Assembly (NCBI GenBank): GCA_001457715.1
Contig: CVRF01000002.1
Location: 1 to 64,000 of the forward strand
Length of the DNA stretch: 64,000 nucleotides
From: Candidatus Providencia siddallii
Lineage (GTDB): Bacteria; Pseudomonadota; Gammaproteobacteria; Enterobacterales; Enterobacteriaceae
Direction of reading: 5' to 3'
The notes beneath the pieces are model-generated. The model was not told the origin of the DNA, did no database searches, and worked only from the letters and a program-made list of their open reading frames with translations. Positions 49,638-55,856 of this stretch are shown here, in pieces (positions within the stretch are counted from its first letter, which is position 1; each line of letters begins with the position of its first letter). Position numbers and translations under genes: made by a program.

Positions 49638-51029
49638 ATGTTGTCTAATGGAATTTTGACAGCATCTTATATCGTTGCTGCTATTTTATTTATATTTAGT
49701 TTATCATGTTTATCTAACTATGAAACTTCACAAAGAGGGAAAAAATATGCTATAATTGGAATGACAATAGCATTAGTTTCAACTATTGTTACTATGTATA
49801 ATACAAATATTAAATGGATAATTATTGCTATTGTTATAGGTGCTGTTATTGGTATTCGTTTGGCAAAAAAAGTAAAAATTATTAATTTACCTGAAATGAT
49901 AGTTATTTTATATAGTTTTGTTGGTTTATCAGCTATAATTATTAGTTTTAATAGTTTTATTGAAATAAATATATATGATGATTCGATTATAAATCGAATA
50001 CATTTAATTGTGGTTTTTTTTGGTGTTTTTATTGGTTCTTTGACGTTTACAGGTTCTATTGTAGCATATAATAAATTGTTAGGTAAAATATCTTCTAAAT
50101 CGATAGTTCTTGAAAATCTAAATAAATTAAATTTATCTGCGATAGCAGCAACAGTGCTTTTATTGTTTATTTTTGTTAAAACAGATAGTTTTATATTGCA
50201 GCTTTTTACATTATTAATTTCTACAATAATATCATTAGTAATTGGTTGGCGTTTTGTTATATCAATTAGAGGTTCAGATATTCCTATTGTTATATCAATT
50301 CTTAATTTTTATTCAGGCTTGTCTGCAGCTTTGGTGGGTTTTATATTATATAATAATTTATTGATTATAATTGGAGCACTTGTTTGCTCTTCTGGAGCAA
50401 TATTATCATATATTATGTGTAAATCAATGAACCGGTCTTTTATTAGTGTTATTACAGGTAGATTTAGAAAAGATAATTGTTTATTAGATAGAAAAAAAAA
50501 TTTTGCTGAACTTACTGAAACAACAGTAGAAAAAGTCGTAGAAATTCTTAAAAGTTCTGAGTCTGTTATTATAACTATTGGATATGGTTTAATTGCTTCA
50601 CAAGCACAGAAGTCTATTTTTGGTATAACAAAAAAATTATTAGAATATGGGATTAAAGTTGGTTTTGCTATTAATTCAACTACAGGGAAGATGCCGGGAC
50701 ATATGAATGTGTTATTGGCAGAAGCAAAAATTCCTTATGATATTGTATTTAGTTTAGATGAGATAAATTATGATTTTTCATCTACTGATACAGTTTTGGT
50801 TATATTGGATAATGATGAAATTGATCCTGATTCTCAAGATAATAAAAATAGCTATATAGTTAGTATGCCGATGTTAGAGGTTTGGAAAGCTAATAATGTA
50901 ATTTTATTTAAACAGTCAATGAATACTTGTTGTATTAATATACAAAATCCATTATTTTTTAAAGAAAATACACAAATTTTGTTTGGTGACTTTAAAAATG
51001 GTCTTGATGCTATTTTACGTATTATTTAA
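49638..51029 (+). CDS. pntB: NAD(P) transhydrogenase subunit beta
   Basis: Beta subunit of the transhydrogenase, with the membrane channel and the NADP-binding domain III. It has 463 residues (E. coli 462). About nine membrane helices cover 1-265. Domain III has VIITIGYGLIASQAQKSIF, FAINSTTGKMPGHMNVLLAE and VILDNDEIDPDSQD-type blocks. MPMLEVWKANNVILFKQSMN keeps the lid region, though the usual Arg/Lys-rich NADP-loop is partly replaced (E. coli KRSM). AAAGG precedes the ATG. Confidence 0.97.
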   Translation: MLSNGILTASYIVAAILFIFSLSCLSNYETSQRGKKYAIIGMTIALVSTIVTMYNTNIKWIIIAIVIGAVIGIRLAKKVKIINLPEMIVILYSFVGLSAIIISFNSFIEINIYDDSIINRIHLIVVFFGVFIGSLTFTGSIVAYNKLLGKISSKSIVLENLNKLNLSAIAATVLLLFIFVKTDSFILQLFTLLISTIISLVIGWRFVISIRGSDIPIVISILNFYSGLSAALVGFILYNNLLIIIGALVCSSGAILSYIMCKSMNRSFISVITGRFRKDNCLLDRKKNFAELTETTVEKVVEILKSSESVIITIGYGLIASQAQKSIFGITKKLLEYGIKVGFAINSTTGKMPGHMNVLLAEAKIPYDIVFSLDEINYDFSSTDTVLVILDNDEIDPDSQDNKNSYIVSMPMLEVWKANNVILFKQSMNTCCINIQNPLFFKENTQILFGDFKNGLDAILRII

Positions 51030-51122: not shown

Positions 51123-51199
51123 TGGTAGGCTTGAGTGGACTTGAACCACCGACCTCACCCTTATCAGGGGTGTGCTCTAACCAACTGAGCTACAAGCCT
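51123..51199 (-). tRNA. tRNA-Ile (anticodon GAT), solitary
   Basis: On the minus strand AGGCTTGTAGCTCAGTTGG; the anticodon loop is CCTGATAAG and the T arm GGTTCAAGTCC, with encoded CCA (51123-51125). This is the tRNA normally found in the 16S-23S spacer of rRNA operons. Here no 16S, tRNA-Ala or 23S sequence lies beside it. It sits downstream of clpB on the same strand, the position of rrnG in E. coli. Confidence 0.97.
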
Positions 51200-51344
51200 A
51201 TTAAATTATATTTGAAATTATTTATTTTAACTGAACTGCTATTAATTAATATTTTGATTAATGTGTTTTTAAATTTATGAAGATTGAATATAAAAATATT
51301 TTTTATAATTTAAATCTGTTTTTTAAAGATTTTTAAAAAAAAAT

Positions 51345-51373
51345 ATGATAATTTATTTTATATAAATAGTCAA
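51345..51373 (-). promoter_or_regulatory. rrn-like promoter upstream of tRNA-Ile
   Basis: On the minus strand TTGACT and TATCAT are separated by 17 bases, about 146 bases before the tRNA 5' end. TTGACT is the -35 sequence of the E. coli rrn P2 promoters. The spacing and both hexamers are very good. It may be a left-over of an rRNA operon promoter that still drives the tRNA. Confidence 0.6.
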
Positions 51374-51438
51374 CTTTTTATTATGTATTTAAATAACATA
51401 TCAAAATATATTTATTTTAAAATAAATATATTTTATAT

Positions 51439-53571
51439 TTATTGTTTTATAGTAAATTCATTATTCTCAACATCTAAAATAATTGGTTTTCCAATCAATA
51501 AATGACCAGATATAATTTTTTTTGCTAACATATTTTCAATTTTTTGTTGAATTTCACGTTTTAATGGTCTAGCTCCAAAAATTGGATTAAACCCATCTTT
51601 ACTAATTTTTTCTAATGCTGTTAATGTTGTTTTTACTTTATAACCGTGTTCTTCTAAGCGTTTGTATAAACGAGTTAGTTGAATATTTGCTATAATAGAG
51701 ATATGATTTTTATTTAATTGATGAAATACAACAATCTCATCAATACGATTAATAAATTCAGGTTTAAAATTTTCTGAAACAATATTCATTATTATATTTT
51801 TAATTTTTATATAAGTATTTATATTAAATTGTTCTTGAATTAATTTAGAACCTAAATTAGAAGTCATAATAATTATTGTGTTTCGAAAATCAATAGTTTT
51901 CCCGTGTCCATTAGTTAAACGACCGTCATCTAGTACTTGTAGTAAAATATTAAAAATATCATGGTGTGCTTTTTCAATTTCATCTAACAATACAATTGAA
52001 TATGGACGACGTTTTATTGATTCAGTTAAGTAACCACTATCCTCATATCCTATATATCCTGGAGGAGCTCCAATTAAACGAGATACTGAATGTTTTTCCA
52101 TAAATTCTGACATGTCTATTCGCACTATTGCATCATCACTGTTAAACATAAAATTTGCTAAAGCTTTACATAATTCAGTTTTACCAACTCCGGTTGGACC
52201 TAGAAACATAAAAGATCCAATTGGTCGATTTGGATCGGATAATCCAACACGGTTACGTCTAATTGCATTTGAAACTGCTGAGATAGCTTCATCTTGACCA
52301 ACTATACGTTTATGTAATTCTTGTTCTATACGTATTAATTTTTTAATTTCATTTTCTAACATTGATGAAATAGGAATTCCAGTCCAACGTGATAAAATTT
52401 CAGTTATCTCAACATCAGTAACTTTATTTCTTAAAAGTTTTATATTTTTATATTCAATTTTATTTGCTGTATTAAGTTGTTTTTCTAAATCCGGAATAAT
52501 ACCATATTGTAATTCAGACATTTTTTCTAAATCACCTAGCCTTCTTGCTTTTTCAATACTAATACGGGCATTGTCTAATTTAGTTTTAATTCGCTGCGTA
52601 TCAGTTAATGAATCTTTTTCTGTTTTCCATTTTTTATTTAATAAAGAATATTCATATTCTTTTTCTAGTAATTCTGTTTCTAATGTTTTAAGTCTTTTTT
52701 TACTTATATCATCTAATTCTTTTTTTAAAGCTTGTTGCTCTAATTTTAATTGAATGATTTTACGTTCTAATCTATCTAAACACTCTGGTTTAGAGTCTAT
52801 TTGCATACGTAAGCTAGCTCCAGCTTCATCTATTAAGTCTATTGCTTTATCTGGTAACATGCGATCAGTTATATATCGATGTGATAATGTAGAAGCTGCA
52901 ACAATTGCTGGATCTGTAATTTGCACATGATGATGTAGCTCATAACGTTCTTTTAAACCACGTAAGATTGCAATTGTATCTTCAATAGAAGGTTCTATTA
53001 TGTATACTTTTTGAAAGCGGCGTTCTAAGGCTGGATTTTTTTCAATATTTTGACGGTATTCGTCTGATGTAGTAGCTCCAACACAATGTAGTTCACCACG
53101 TGCTAAGGCTGGTTTTAACATATTACTTATGTCTAATGTATTATCAGTGGTTTTTCCAGTTCCTACTATTGTATGTATTTCATCGATAAATAAAATAATG
53201 TTACCTGATTGTTTGGAAATGTTTTTTAGAATTTTTTTTAAGCGCTCTTCAAGTTCGCCACGATATTTTGCTCCAGCAATTAATGATCCGATATCTAGTG
53301 ATAATATTCGTTTATTTTTTAAACCTTCAGGAATTTCATTATTTATAATTCTTTGTGCTAATCCTTCTACTATAGCTGTTTTACCTACCCCTGGTTCTCC
53401 GATTAATACTGGGTTATTTTTAGTTCGTCGTTGTAGTACTTGTATTGTACGACGAATTTCTTCGTCACGTCCTATGACAGGATCTAATTTTCCTTGTTCT
53501 GCTAATTCTGTTAAGTCGATAGTAAAATTTTTTAATGTTTGCTGTAGATCTTCAGCATTTTCATTATTCAT
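51439..53571 (-). CDS. clpB: ClpB disaggregase lacking the N-terminal domain
   Basis: Hsp100 disaggregase that works with DnaK. Only 710 residues against 857 in E. coli. It begins [16 protein letters not shown], and this Met aligns with Val149 of E. coli, the internal start that makes the natural short form ClpB-80. Both AAA modules are whole: Walker A GEPGVGKT at 58-65 and GPTGVGKT in the second module, with the coiled-coil M domain between. The ATG has GGAG 5 bases upstream. Upstream the frame is broken (see relic), so the long form cannot be made. ClpB-80 remains active in E. coli, though the N-domain helps on some substrates. Confidence 0.96.
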
Positions 53572-54000
53572 TTTTTCTCCATCACGAATATATTTTATTA
53601 CATTTATTAAATTGTTTTTTATTAATACTTAATTTTTTAAGTATATTTGATATATGTTGTGTTTATTCAAGAATTGCAAGAAAAATTAACTCTGAAAAAA
53701 TAAATGTATCTCTTTTTTTGTGATAAATTTTTACAAAATTAAAATGATATATTAAGTAGCTAGATAATTGTATTTTATATATTATTAAGTTTGTGGTAGA
53801 ACACACAATTTATTTTGAATTTTTTGTTTAAATTATATTATATTTATTTTTAATATTTTTAATAAATAATTAATTGTATTATTTTTTGTTTTGATAAAGA
53901 ATTTAATAAATATATTGGTTCGATAAATTGATTTTTATTTTCAAAATTAAAATTTAGCACTTTCTGTACCATGTTTAAGGTTATTTGTAAATTAATATAA
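53572..54000 (-). pseudogene. clpB: Degraded N-terminal domain of clpB
   Basis: The gap between clpB and rluD still reads as the ClpB N-domain in pieces. In order: NQFIEPIYLLNSL (near 53895-53933; E. coli NQFIEPLHLMSALL), IQNKLCVLPQT (E. coli INQALNRLPQV), FCKNLSQKK (LCDKLAQKR), FSELIFLAILE (SSELFVLAALE), NILKKLS (DILKAAG) and [10 protein letters not shown] just before the new ATG. Pieces lie in different frames: there is a slip in the T run at about 53695-53700, another in an A run near 53615, and several stop codons. The domain is dead while the rest of the gene is clean. Confidence 0.9.
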
Positions 54001-54046
54001 TATAATGATATATATTATATAATAATTAAAAATACTTAATACAATT

Positions 54047-55027
54047 TTATTGTATATTTTTTTTGTAAAATTTAGTATCATTTTTTAATGATTTAATAAG
54101 TTTAACCATATCATTTGGTAATGGTGCATGAAGTTCAATTTGTTTTTTTGTAAAAGGATGATAAAATCTCAACATGCTTGCATGTAAAGCTTGTCTATTA
54201 AATGCACTTATTATTTCAAAGTTTTTTTTAGTTATTTCGTTTATATGTCGATAAGCCCCTCCATATAATGAATTACCTAATAAAGGATGTTTAATATAGG
54301 ACATATGAACAAGAATTTGATGAGTTCTTCCTGTTTCTAATCTAATAAGTAATTGTGTATGAGCTCTAAAATGCTTAGTTATACGGTAGTAAGTAATTGC
54401 AGGCCTGCCTTTTATATTAACAGACATTTTAGTTCTTTTTATTGGATGTCTGGAAATCGGTTTATTTATAACACCTCCACTAGTCATTTTTCCTATTACT
54501 ATCGCATCATATTCTCTAGTGATTTGCCTTAATTGTAAAGATTTTATTAAATACATATGAGCTAAATTGTTTTTTGCAATTATCATTAATCCAGTTGTAT
54601 TTTTATCTAAACGATGAATAATTCCTGCTCTTGGGATGTTATTTATTTCAGGATATAGATATAATAATGCATTAAGGATTGTTCCATCTGTATTATTTAC
54701 ACCTGGATGAACAACTAAATTACAAGGTTTGTTAATAACAAGTATATGTTCATCTTCAAAAATAATGTTAAGTGGTATATTTTGTGGTTTATGGCAAATA
54801 TCATTGTTTTTAGTGATAAAATTTATCGAAATATGTTCTTTACCGAAAATTTTTGTTTTTGGTTTGTTTATATTTTTATTGTTAACATTTACATTATTAT
54901 GCAAAATCATTTCTTTTATTTTAGATCTTGTAAAATTTGGTAATAAATTTACTAATGCATTATCTAAACGCATTCCGATTTGTGATTTTGTAGTAATTAG
55001 GTTAATTTTTATGTGTTTTTTAATCAT
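54047..55027 (-). CDS. rluD: 23S rRNA pseudouridine(1911/1915/1917) synthase RluD
   Basis: Makes three pseudouridines in helix 69 of 23S rRNA, at the decoding-site bridge. It has 326 residues, as in E. coli. The S4 RNA-binding domain is at about 15-75 (GMRLDNALVNLLPNFTRSKI). The catalytic Asp is in AGIIHRLDKNTTGLMIIAKN. Family motifs RLETGRTHQILVHMSYI and HASMLRFYHP are present. Divergent from bamD with about 80 bases between, as in E. coli. pgeF (yfiH), which normally sits between rluD and clpB, is gone. Confidence 0.97.
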   Translation of the reverse strand: MIKKHIKINLITTKSQIGMRLDNALVNLLPNFTRSKIKEMILHNNVNVNNKNINKPKTKIFGKEHISINFITKNNDICHKPQNIPLNIIFEDEHILVINKPCNLVVHPGVNNTDGTILNALLYLYPEINNIPRAGIIHRLDKNTTGLMIIAKNNLAHMYLIKSLQLRQITREYDAIVIGKMTSGGVINKPISRHPIKRTKMSVNIKGRPAITYYRITKHFRAHTQLLIRLETGRTHQILVHMSYIKHPLLGNSLYGGAYRHINEITKKNFEIISAFNRQALHASMLRFYHPFTKKQIELHAPLPNDMVKLIKSLKNDTKFYKKNIQ

Positions 55028-55106
55028 ATTATATTTATGGTTAATGGCATATAGTTATTTATAGTGTATAGTATTATTGTTTTTATTTATTTTAGAGAAC
55101 ATTAAG

Positions 55107-55856
55107 ATGTTTAATCAATGTTATATTATGATAAATATAAAATACATTTTAATAATTTTTTTACTAAATATTATTACTGCTGGATGTAGTAATAATCATG
55201 AATCTAATTCTGATGATTCTATAATTAAAATTTATAATTTTGGACAACAAAAATTACATAATGGTGAGTTTAGAGACGCAATAAAACAATTTGAGATATT
55301 AAATAATGATTACCCATTTAGTTTGTATGCTGATCAAGTTCAGTTGAATTTAATTTATGCTTATTATAAATCATATGAATTATTATCAGCAATAAATATT
55401 ATTGATCGTTTTATTAGTTTAAATCCAGTTCATACAAATCTAGATTACGTAATTTATATGCGTGGGCTTATAGCTATGGATTTAGATGACGATTTTTTGC
55501 ATAGTTTTTTTGGTCTTAAGAATTATAACAGGAATACTCAGTATGTGAGTACTGCATTCAAATATTTTCGTCAATTAGTTTTTTATTATCCTAATAGTTT
55601 GTATGTTGCTGATGCTGGTAAAAGATTAATTTATTTAAAAAATCGTTTAGCAAATTTCGATTTTTCAGTAATAAAGTATTATAATGAAATAGAGGCTTAT
55701 GTAGCAATAATTAATCGTGTTAATCAAATGTTACAAGATCATCCATATGCAGAAGCCACGTTTAATTCATTGAAATACATGAGAACAGCATACGAAAAGC
55801 TCGGTTTGAATGAAGAAGCAAATAAAGTTAATAATATTATTATGTTTAATAAATAA
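55107..55856 (+). CDS. bamD: Outer-membrane assembly lipoprotein BamD
   Basis: Essential lipoprotein of the Bam machine that folds outer-membrane beta-barrels. From the ATG at 55107 it has about 249 residues (E. coli 245); MINIKYIL at 55128 is another possible start, and the frame runs back to a TTG at 55077. The lipobox is ITAGC. TPR-like helices follow: FGQQKLHNGEFRDAIKQFE, QVQLNLIYAYYKSYE, and RFISLNPVHTNLDYVIYMRG. Matches E. coli along its length. Its presence means outer-membrane proteins are still assembled. Confidence 0.95.
   Translation: MFNQCYIMINIKYILIIFLLNIITAGCSNNHESNSDDSIIKIYNFGQQKLHNGEFRDAIKQFEILNNDYPFSLYADQVQLNLIYAYYKSYELLSAINIIDRFISLNPVHTNLDYVIYMRGLIAMDLDDDFLHSFFGLKNYNRNTQYVSTAFKYFRQLVFYYPNSLYVADAGKRLIYLKNRLANFDFSVIKYYNEIEAYVAIINRVNQMLQDHPYAEATFNSLKYMRTAYEKLGLNEEANKVNNIIMFNK

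Follow-up and report, generated by a model that had tools for sequence, protein, structure and literature searches.

The tRNA-Ile(GAU) gene (trnI) that stands alone downstream of clpB in Candidatus Providencia siddallii is very probably the residue of an rRNA operon once located downstream of clpB, in which the rRNA genes were deleted in place while the P2 promoter and the tRNA gene were kept. The locus was examined in a window of 64,000 nucleotides (64 kb), the whole stretch of DNA analysed, which carries the following features around trnI:

49638..51029, plus strand: pntB, the present far-side gene, which is not among the genes neighbouring E. coli rrn operons
51123..51199, minus strand: tRNA-Ile(GAU) gene with an encoded CCA, identified by ARAGORN and Rfam; the sole copy found in the genome
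51239..51304, minus strand: 66-nt stretch resembling a pre-16S leader, from comparison with three leaders of one genus
51323..51329, minus strand: weak boxA-like word TCTTTAA, not convincing alone
51345..51373, minus strand: rrn P2-like promoter TTGACT-17-TATCAT, from motif, position, and conservation
51403..51434, minus strand: inverted repeat of A+T only, directly after clpB
51439..53571, minus strand: clpB, encoding a short ClpB80-like form; it marks the upstream side of the rrnG site
54047..55027, minus strand: rluD, further synteny of the rrnG side
55077..55856, plus strand: bamD, further synteny of the rrnG side

ARAGORN assigned the anticodon GAT (Ile) to trnI, and Rfam also called a tRNA there, with the highest score (72.3 bits) among the seven tRNAs of the window. 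The gene has a canonical fold and is 96% identical to the rrn spacer copies of three other genomes (G002, G005, and G010). The search of the genome yielded no second tRNA-Ile(GAU); its other matches, at 76-79% identity, were two tRNA-Met genes and one tRNA-Gly gene, and no rRNA remnant was matched anywhere in the 64-kb window. These results confirmed the initial annotation in describing a lone tRNA-Ile(GAU) on the clpB strand. The gene follows clpB on the same strand after a gap of 239 bp and is itself followed by pntB on the opposite strand. Unlike the copy in the window, the tRNA-Ile of G001, the only other member of the genus compared (L039:10225-10300), has no encoded CCA, and alignments of many other small-genome trnI copies likewise end at base 74-75 of 77.

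The position of trnI, downstream of clpB and on its strand with rluD and bamD beyond, is that of rrnG in E. coli and of the clpB-linked rrn operons of Enterobacteriaceae, which are alike also in their TTGACT P2. The 16S, 23S, 5S, and tRNA-Ala genes are absent here, and without 16S, 23S, and 5S at clpB the locus is a remnant rather than an operon. On the far side, pntB occurs in place of the kgtP found beside E. coli rrnG, indicating that a rearrangement has its breakpoint here as well. Thus, the earlier identification of this place with that of rrnG was correct in that rrnG adjoins clpB, but it does not extend to the tRNA, because the rrnG spacer carries tRNA-Glu (gltW) and not tRNA-Ile.

ClpB was searched for in 295 genomes of the family, 230 of which matched at a strict threshold. 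The DNA downstream of clpB was then read in 46 larger genomes (those with clpB near contig ends and G032, G063, G215, G234, G244, and G281 were set aside) and in E. coli K-12 and Yersinia aleksiciae, giving 48 loci; genomes of up to about 2.4 Mb were classed as small, and this split was made by size alone. A full-length 16S gene stood downstream of clpB on the same strand at 43 of the 48 loci, the other five having a partial one or none. Of these 43 intact clpB-linked operons, 30, including E. coli rrnG, had a Glu spacer and 13 an Ile-Ala spacer, and in 41 TTGACT occurred upstream of 16S (200-275 nt). The presence of 16S at clpB in most relatives, together with TTGACT and both kinds of spacer, indicated that this is an ancestral rrn site of variable spacer type and that TTGACT is its regular P2 -35 element. 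With 13 of 43 intact operons of Ile-Ala type, an Ile-type operon at clpB is ordinary; that the ancestor of the present locus was of this type must be assumed, as 30 of the 43 carry Glu.

Intermediate states of decay were found at clpB in the small genomes, of which 34 loci were surveyed, G089 and G231 being left out. An intact 16S-Ile-Ala-23S operon followed clpB at two loci (G180 and G042), while an intact operon (G199) and a tRNA-Glu-23S unit (G092) were each found once on the opposite strand. Parts or remnants of rRNA genes remained at five loci (G157, G075, G126, G104, and G022), and at two others tRNA-Ile-tRNA-Ala stood without rRNA (G038 and G048). At four more (G088, and G252, G165, and G007 of one genus) the genes after clpB were tRNA-Asp-tRNA-Trp, which in rrnC of E. 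coli are the distal tRNAs, and no rRNA was found. Nothing rrn-like was seen in the stretch read at the remaining 19 loci, two of which (G129 and G302) were cut by a contig end. In G038 the sequence TTGACT-16-TATTAT lies ahead of trnI in a clpB-trnI gap free of N, and in G048 a TTGACT promoter occurs about 1.5 kb ahead of trnI. In G038 the search yielded neither a 16S nor a 23S gene that was nearly complete; the only 16S sequence consisted of 5′ ends lying at the two termini of a single contig, which suggests that the assembly is interrupted at the rRNA genes of this genome. In a ClpB tree made by a quick method, with long compositionally biased branches and used solely for this separation, G038 and G048 fell with larger-genome relatives, apart from the window's genome (G000) and G001. 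The latter, a one-contig genome, has the same order as the window, namely clpB, trnI, and pntB, with about 109 bp between the first two.

The initial annotation had likened the sequence TTGACT-17-TATCAT ahead of trnI to an rrn P2 promoter, and this sequence does match P2 in its -35 hexamer and position and has a conserved counterpart in G001. In E. coli, the hexamer TTGACT belongs to P2. Both here and in G001 the spacer measures 17 nt, compared with 16 nt in E. coli and G038. The clpB-trnI site is the only match to TTGACT-N15-18-TANNAT on both strands of the 64 kb; given that shuffles of the whole window contained a mean of 2.12 matches, the significance of the motif lies in its place, not in its existence. 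Supportively, a Markov simulation of the 239-bp gap yielded such a promoter site in 0.06% of sequences. A plain sigma-70 consensus scan detected no excess (8 promoter-like sites in 800 bp versus 9.0 in shuffles), and the promoter assignment is therefore founded on the particular -35 hexamer, on where it lies, and on its conservation rather than on a generic promoter score. Transcription is predicted to start at about 51337-51339 on the minus strand. As for the boxA-like word, a chance occurrence of about 3% was obtained in the gap simulation, and none was seen in the clpB-trnI gap of G001.

These data also bear on whether tRNA-Ile could have reached clpB by copying or transfer from an operon elsewhere, with an independent origin of the TTGACT promoter. 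The genome has indeed been rearranged, with pntB replacing kgtP and with trnA, 16S, and 23S at other sites, and promoter-like sites arise readily in A+T-rich gaps. However, a relocated gene would have had to land by chance at an ancestral rrn site, on the matching strand and with a P2 -35 sequence, whereas the promoter pattern occurs nowhere else in the window and is kept in G001, and relatives show the intermediate decay described above. We therefore consider such a relocation very improbable. It is also conceivable that the clpB transcript extends over the 239 bp to trnI, which is on the same strand, and ends with this gene, the promoter-like site being idle. Against this, the inverted repeat lies between the two genes, and the motif TTGACT-17-TATAAT has been kept in the G001 gap although the remainder diverged and the gap shortened to about 109 bp, making dependence on read-through unlikely. 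The inverted repeat is possibly the clpB terminator; a terminator scan requiring G-C pairs found none.

Next to the promoter, part of a 16S leader may also have been preserved. When the clpB-trnI gaps of G000, G001, G038, and G048 were compared with ten leaders or spacers, 9 of the 40 comparisons, which are non-independent and uncorrected, reached p≤0.05 against shuffles where 2 were expected, and the rest were not significant. For the window's genome, comparing its 16S leader with its clpB-trnI gap gave no match, as about 73% of shuffles scored as high. In a wider comparison, 5 of 46 leaders beat 95% of shuffles for this gap. Three of the five, belonging to intact clpB-linked operons of one genus, gave the 66-nt match, whose top score of 38 was reached by 2 of 300 shuffles and by none of 300 random window stretches. 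The other two had short matches elsewhere in the gap, which were attributed to chance. With scores averaged over 48 leaders, the G000 gap was exceeded by 8 of 200 shuffles with the promoter included or not, and the G001 gap by 1 of 200 with the promoter and 30 of 200 without it. A 16S remnant was not found in the G048 gap (score 25 versus a shuffled maximum of 32). The order in the window's gap, namely P2, weak boxA-like word, leader piece, and tRNA, is that of an operon minus its 16S gene.

The genome comprises 843,819 bases in four contigs and is 96.44% complete; its family also includes genomes close to E. coli. Its single 16S, its trnE-23S-5S unit, trnI, and trnA occupy four separate sites. 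The 16S gene lies between uvrD and asd, as it does in G001, and the 23S gene 77 kb from it, both on another contig than the window; trnE accompanies the 23S gene, which is followed by a 5S-like sequence recognized by eye. The tRNA-Ala(UGC) gene trnA (L230:6464-6538) stands alone between mnmG and lysC-pgi. Gene names around 16S, 23S, and trnA were taken from reading the translations. With respect to the four-contig assembly, the one-contig G001 showed the same gene set, with single copies of 16S, 23S, trnI, and trnA, the 23S gene being preceded by trnE at a distance of 169 bp. A promoter-like site, TTGACT-16-TACCAT, was also noted 240 nt upstream of trnE in the trnE-23S-5S unit (L040:10374-10447 and upstream).

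Thus, an intact 16S-Ile-Ala-23S operon was not found elsewhere in the genome, and rrn synteny at clpB does exist in relatives. This synteny, the P2 motif, and the decay states in relatives support the proposal of the initial annotation that an operon was deleted around its tRNA. We propose that several rrn operons were reduced to single rRNA genes during genome shrinkage, and that the 16S, tRNA-Ala, 23S, and 5S genes of the clpB copy would have been deleted in place, leaving tRNA-Ile and the P2 promoter, perhaps together with a portion of the 16S leader. The tRNA gene would have been kept because no other copy remained, and the loss would have stayed incomplete because the surviving 23S unit has the other spacer type (tRNA-Glu). 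At present trnI is probably transcribed alone from the old P2, and its transcript would be trimmed by the usual tRNA enzymes.

Orphan trnI genes were surveyed in 80 small genomes; about 20 others, in which ClpB had no match, were not included. At the threshold used, trnI was found in 71 of the 80, giving 73 copies, of which 47 lay within 500 bp downstream of a 16S match and 26 did not. Three of these 26 orphans were at clpB, and 12 of the other 23 occurred within 1.2 kb of a gene flanking one of the other six E. coli rrn operons, with orientations that on reading agreed in all 12 cases. Random points at control loci gave 10% for such flank genes; the corresponding figure in a tRNA control was 12 of 43, but that control was not clean, as a single tRNA cluster, which in E. 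coli adjoins rrnB, supplied all 12. A TTGACT-type promoter within 400 nt was present at only 4 of 27 orphan trnI genes, and no P2-like promoter was found within 400 nt before the genome's trnA, indicating that promoter retention is not general.

The surroundings of trnA are themselves reminiscent of rrn flanks. In E. coli, a distance of 18.7 kb separates rrnE from lysC and pgi on its downstream side, and mnmG is located on the upstream side of rrnC, about 16 kb away. The relative orientations of mnmG and lysC-pgi around trnA match these rrnC-upstream and rrnE-downstream sides; the neighbours of trnA are identical in G001 if its contig is circular. If the intervening genes were lost, trnA is possibly a second operon ghost with hybrid rrnC/rrnE flanks, an interpretation made after the fact. 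Similarly, the same-strand genes after clpB, itself a marker of the rrnG side, are murB-birA from the rrnB side in G009, G067, G139, and G238, whereas in G075 a 23S remnant and dsbA-polA from the rrnA side are found there (loci L150, L172, L174, L175, and L162). These arrangements may be scars left by an exchange between rrn operons in which the operon itself disappeared. The orphan trnI sites of G104, G058, and G056 also join the flanks of two operons, which we take as the mark of such an exchange. All these hybrid flanks favor a variant of the main reading in which an exchange between operons came first and the rRNA was lost then or later. At clpB in the window itself, however, no hybrid is present, since the E. 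coli rrn neighbors examined do not include pntB; for this locus we thus regard a preceding exchange as possible but rather doubtful.

In-place loss around a retained tRNA-Ile may be related to the existence of two spacer types. Among the seven E. coli rrn spacers, those of rrnB, rrnC, rrnE, and rrnG hold Glu and those of rrnA, rrnD, and rrnH hold Ile plus Ala, never both, so that one surviving operon cannot hold both tRNA types. Spacer tRNAs were tallied in 52 small genomes with a single 16S, a single 23S, and both tRNA matches, 24 of 76 being excluded by copy number or a missing tRNA match. The tally omitted partial rRNA matches in G022, G143, G067, G064, G104, G075, G048, and G126 and dropped five genomes without 16S and trnI matches; G143, with a decayed 16S, counts as 16S-linked in the trnI survey and as orphan here. 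In 16 of the 52 genomes 16S and 23S were linked, and all 16 had an orphan spacer tRNA (Ile in eight, Glu in seven, and both in one). In the 36 with 16S and 23S split, complementary 16S-Ile and Glu-23S fragments occurred in 24, many of which may, judged from size only, be one clade. Three others, G000, G001, and G009, combined an orphan Ile with Glu-23S, and the rest had Ile at 16S with Glu orphan (six), Ile orphan with Glu at 16S (two), or both orphan (one). These counts are of genomes, not of independent events. We hold with about even confidence that the two spacer types force the outcome: shrinkage to single rRNA genes would leave either a ghost at an old operon site or a split operon keeping 16S-Ile and Glu-23S, and the split operons of insect symbionts would be a by-product of keeping both tRNAs rather than of relaxed ribosome regulation. 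Such a constraint would explain the frequency of these ghosts and give a concrete reason why rRNA operons fragment in shrinking genomes.

Separation of 16S from 23S in Buchnera and other symbionts is cited in the parts of PMC7761764 consulted. As in Buchnera, 16S and 23S are far apart here; the present genome differs in that its Ile and Ala spacer tRNAs are separated too, each at a further site of its own, and in the P2-like promoter retained by trnI. The fate of spacer tRNAs is untreated in those parts of PMC7761764 and among the literature matches listed, which are mostly from non-subscription journals and hence no proof of novelty. Dispersed rRNA genes in symbionts are thus known, and the rescue of a tRNA in place with its promoter appears to be new. 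According to the parts of PMC4683628 consulted, the fifth rrn deletion in E. coli needed a tRNA plasmid (ptRNA67), since all tRNA-Ile/tRNA-Ala spacer genes would otherwise have been lost; in these multiple deletion strains, spacer tRNAs become limiting or missing after operon removal and need a separate supply. The supply there is a laboratory plasmid, whereas here it is a surviving chromosomal residue, which makes the present locus a natural counterpart of those strains. Orphan spacer tRNAs should therefore mark former operon sites, by which lost operons and exchanges between operons could be mapped.

The clpB gene itself is also reduced. Its product of 710 aa is close to E. coli ClpB80 (709 aa from coordinates), and only this short form is encoded. 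Examined by eye, the ClpB N-terminal domain seems to have been left upstream as a decayed stretch with stops (within 51439-54046), and in G001 this stretch is gone. Open frames of 700-743 aa for ClpB were found in 14 of the 37 small genomes having ClpB.
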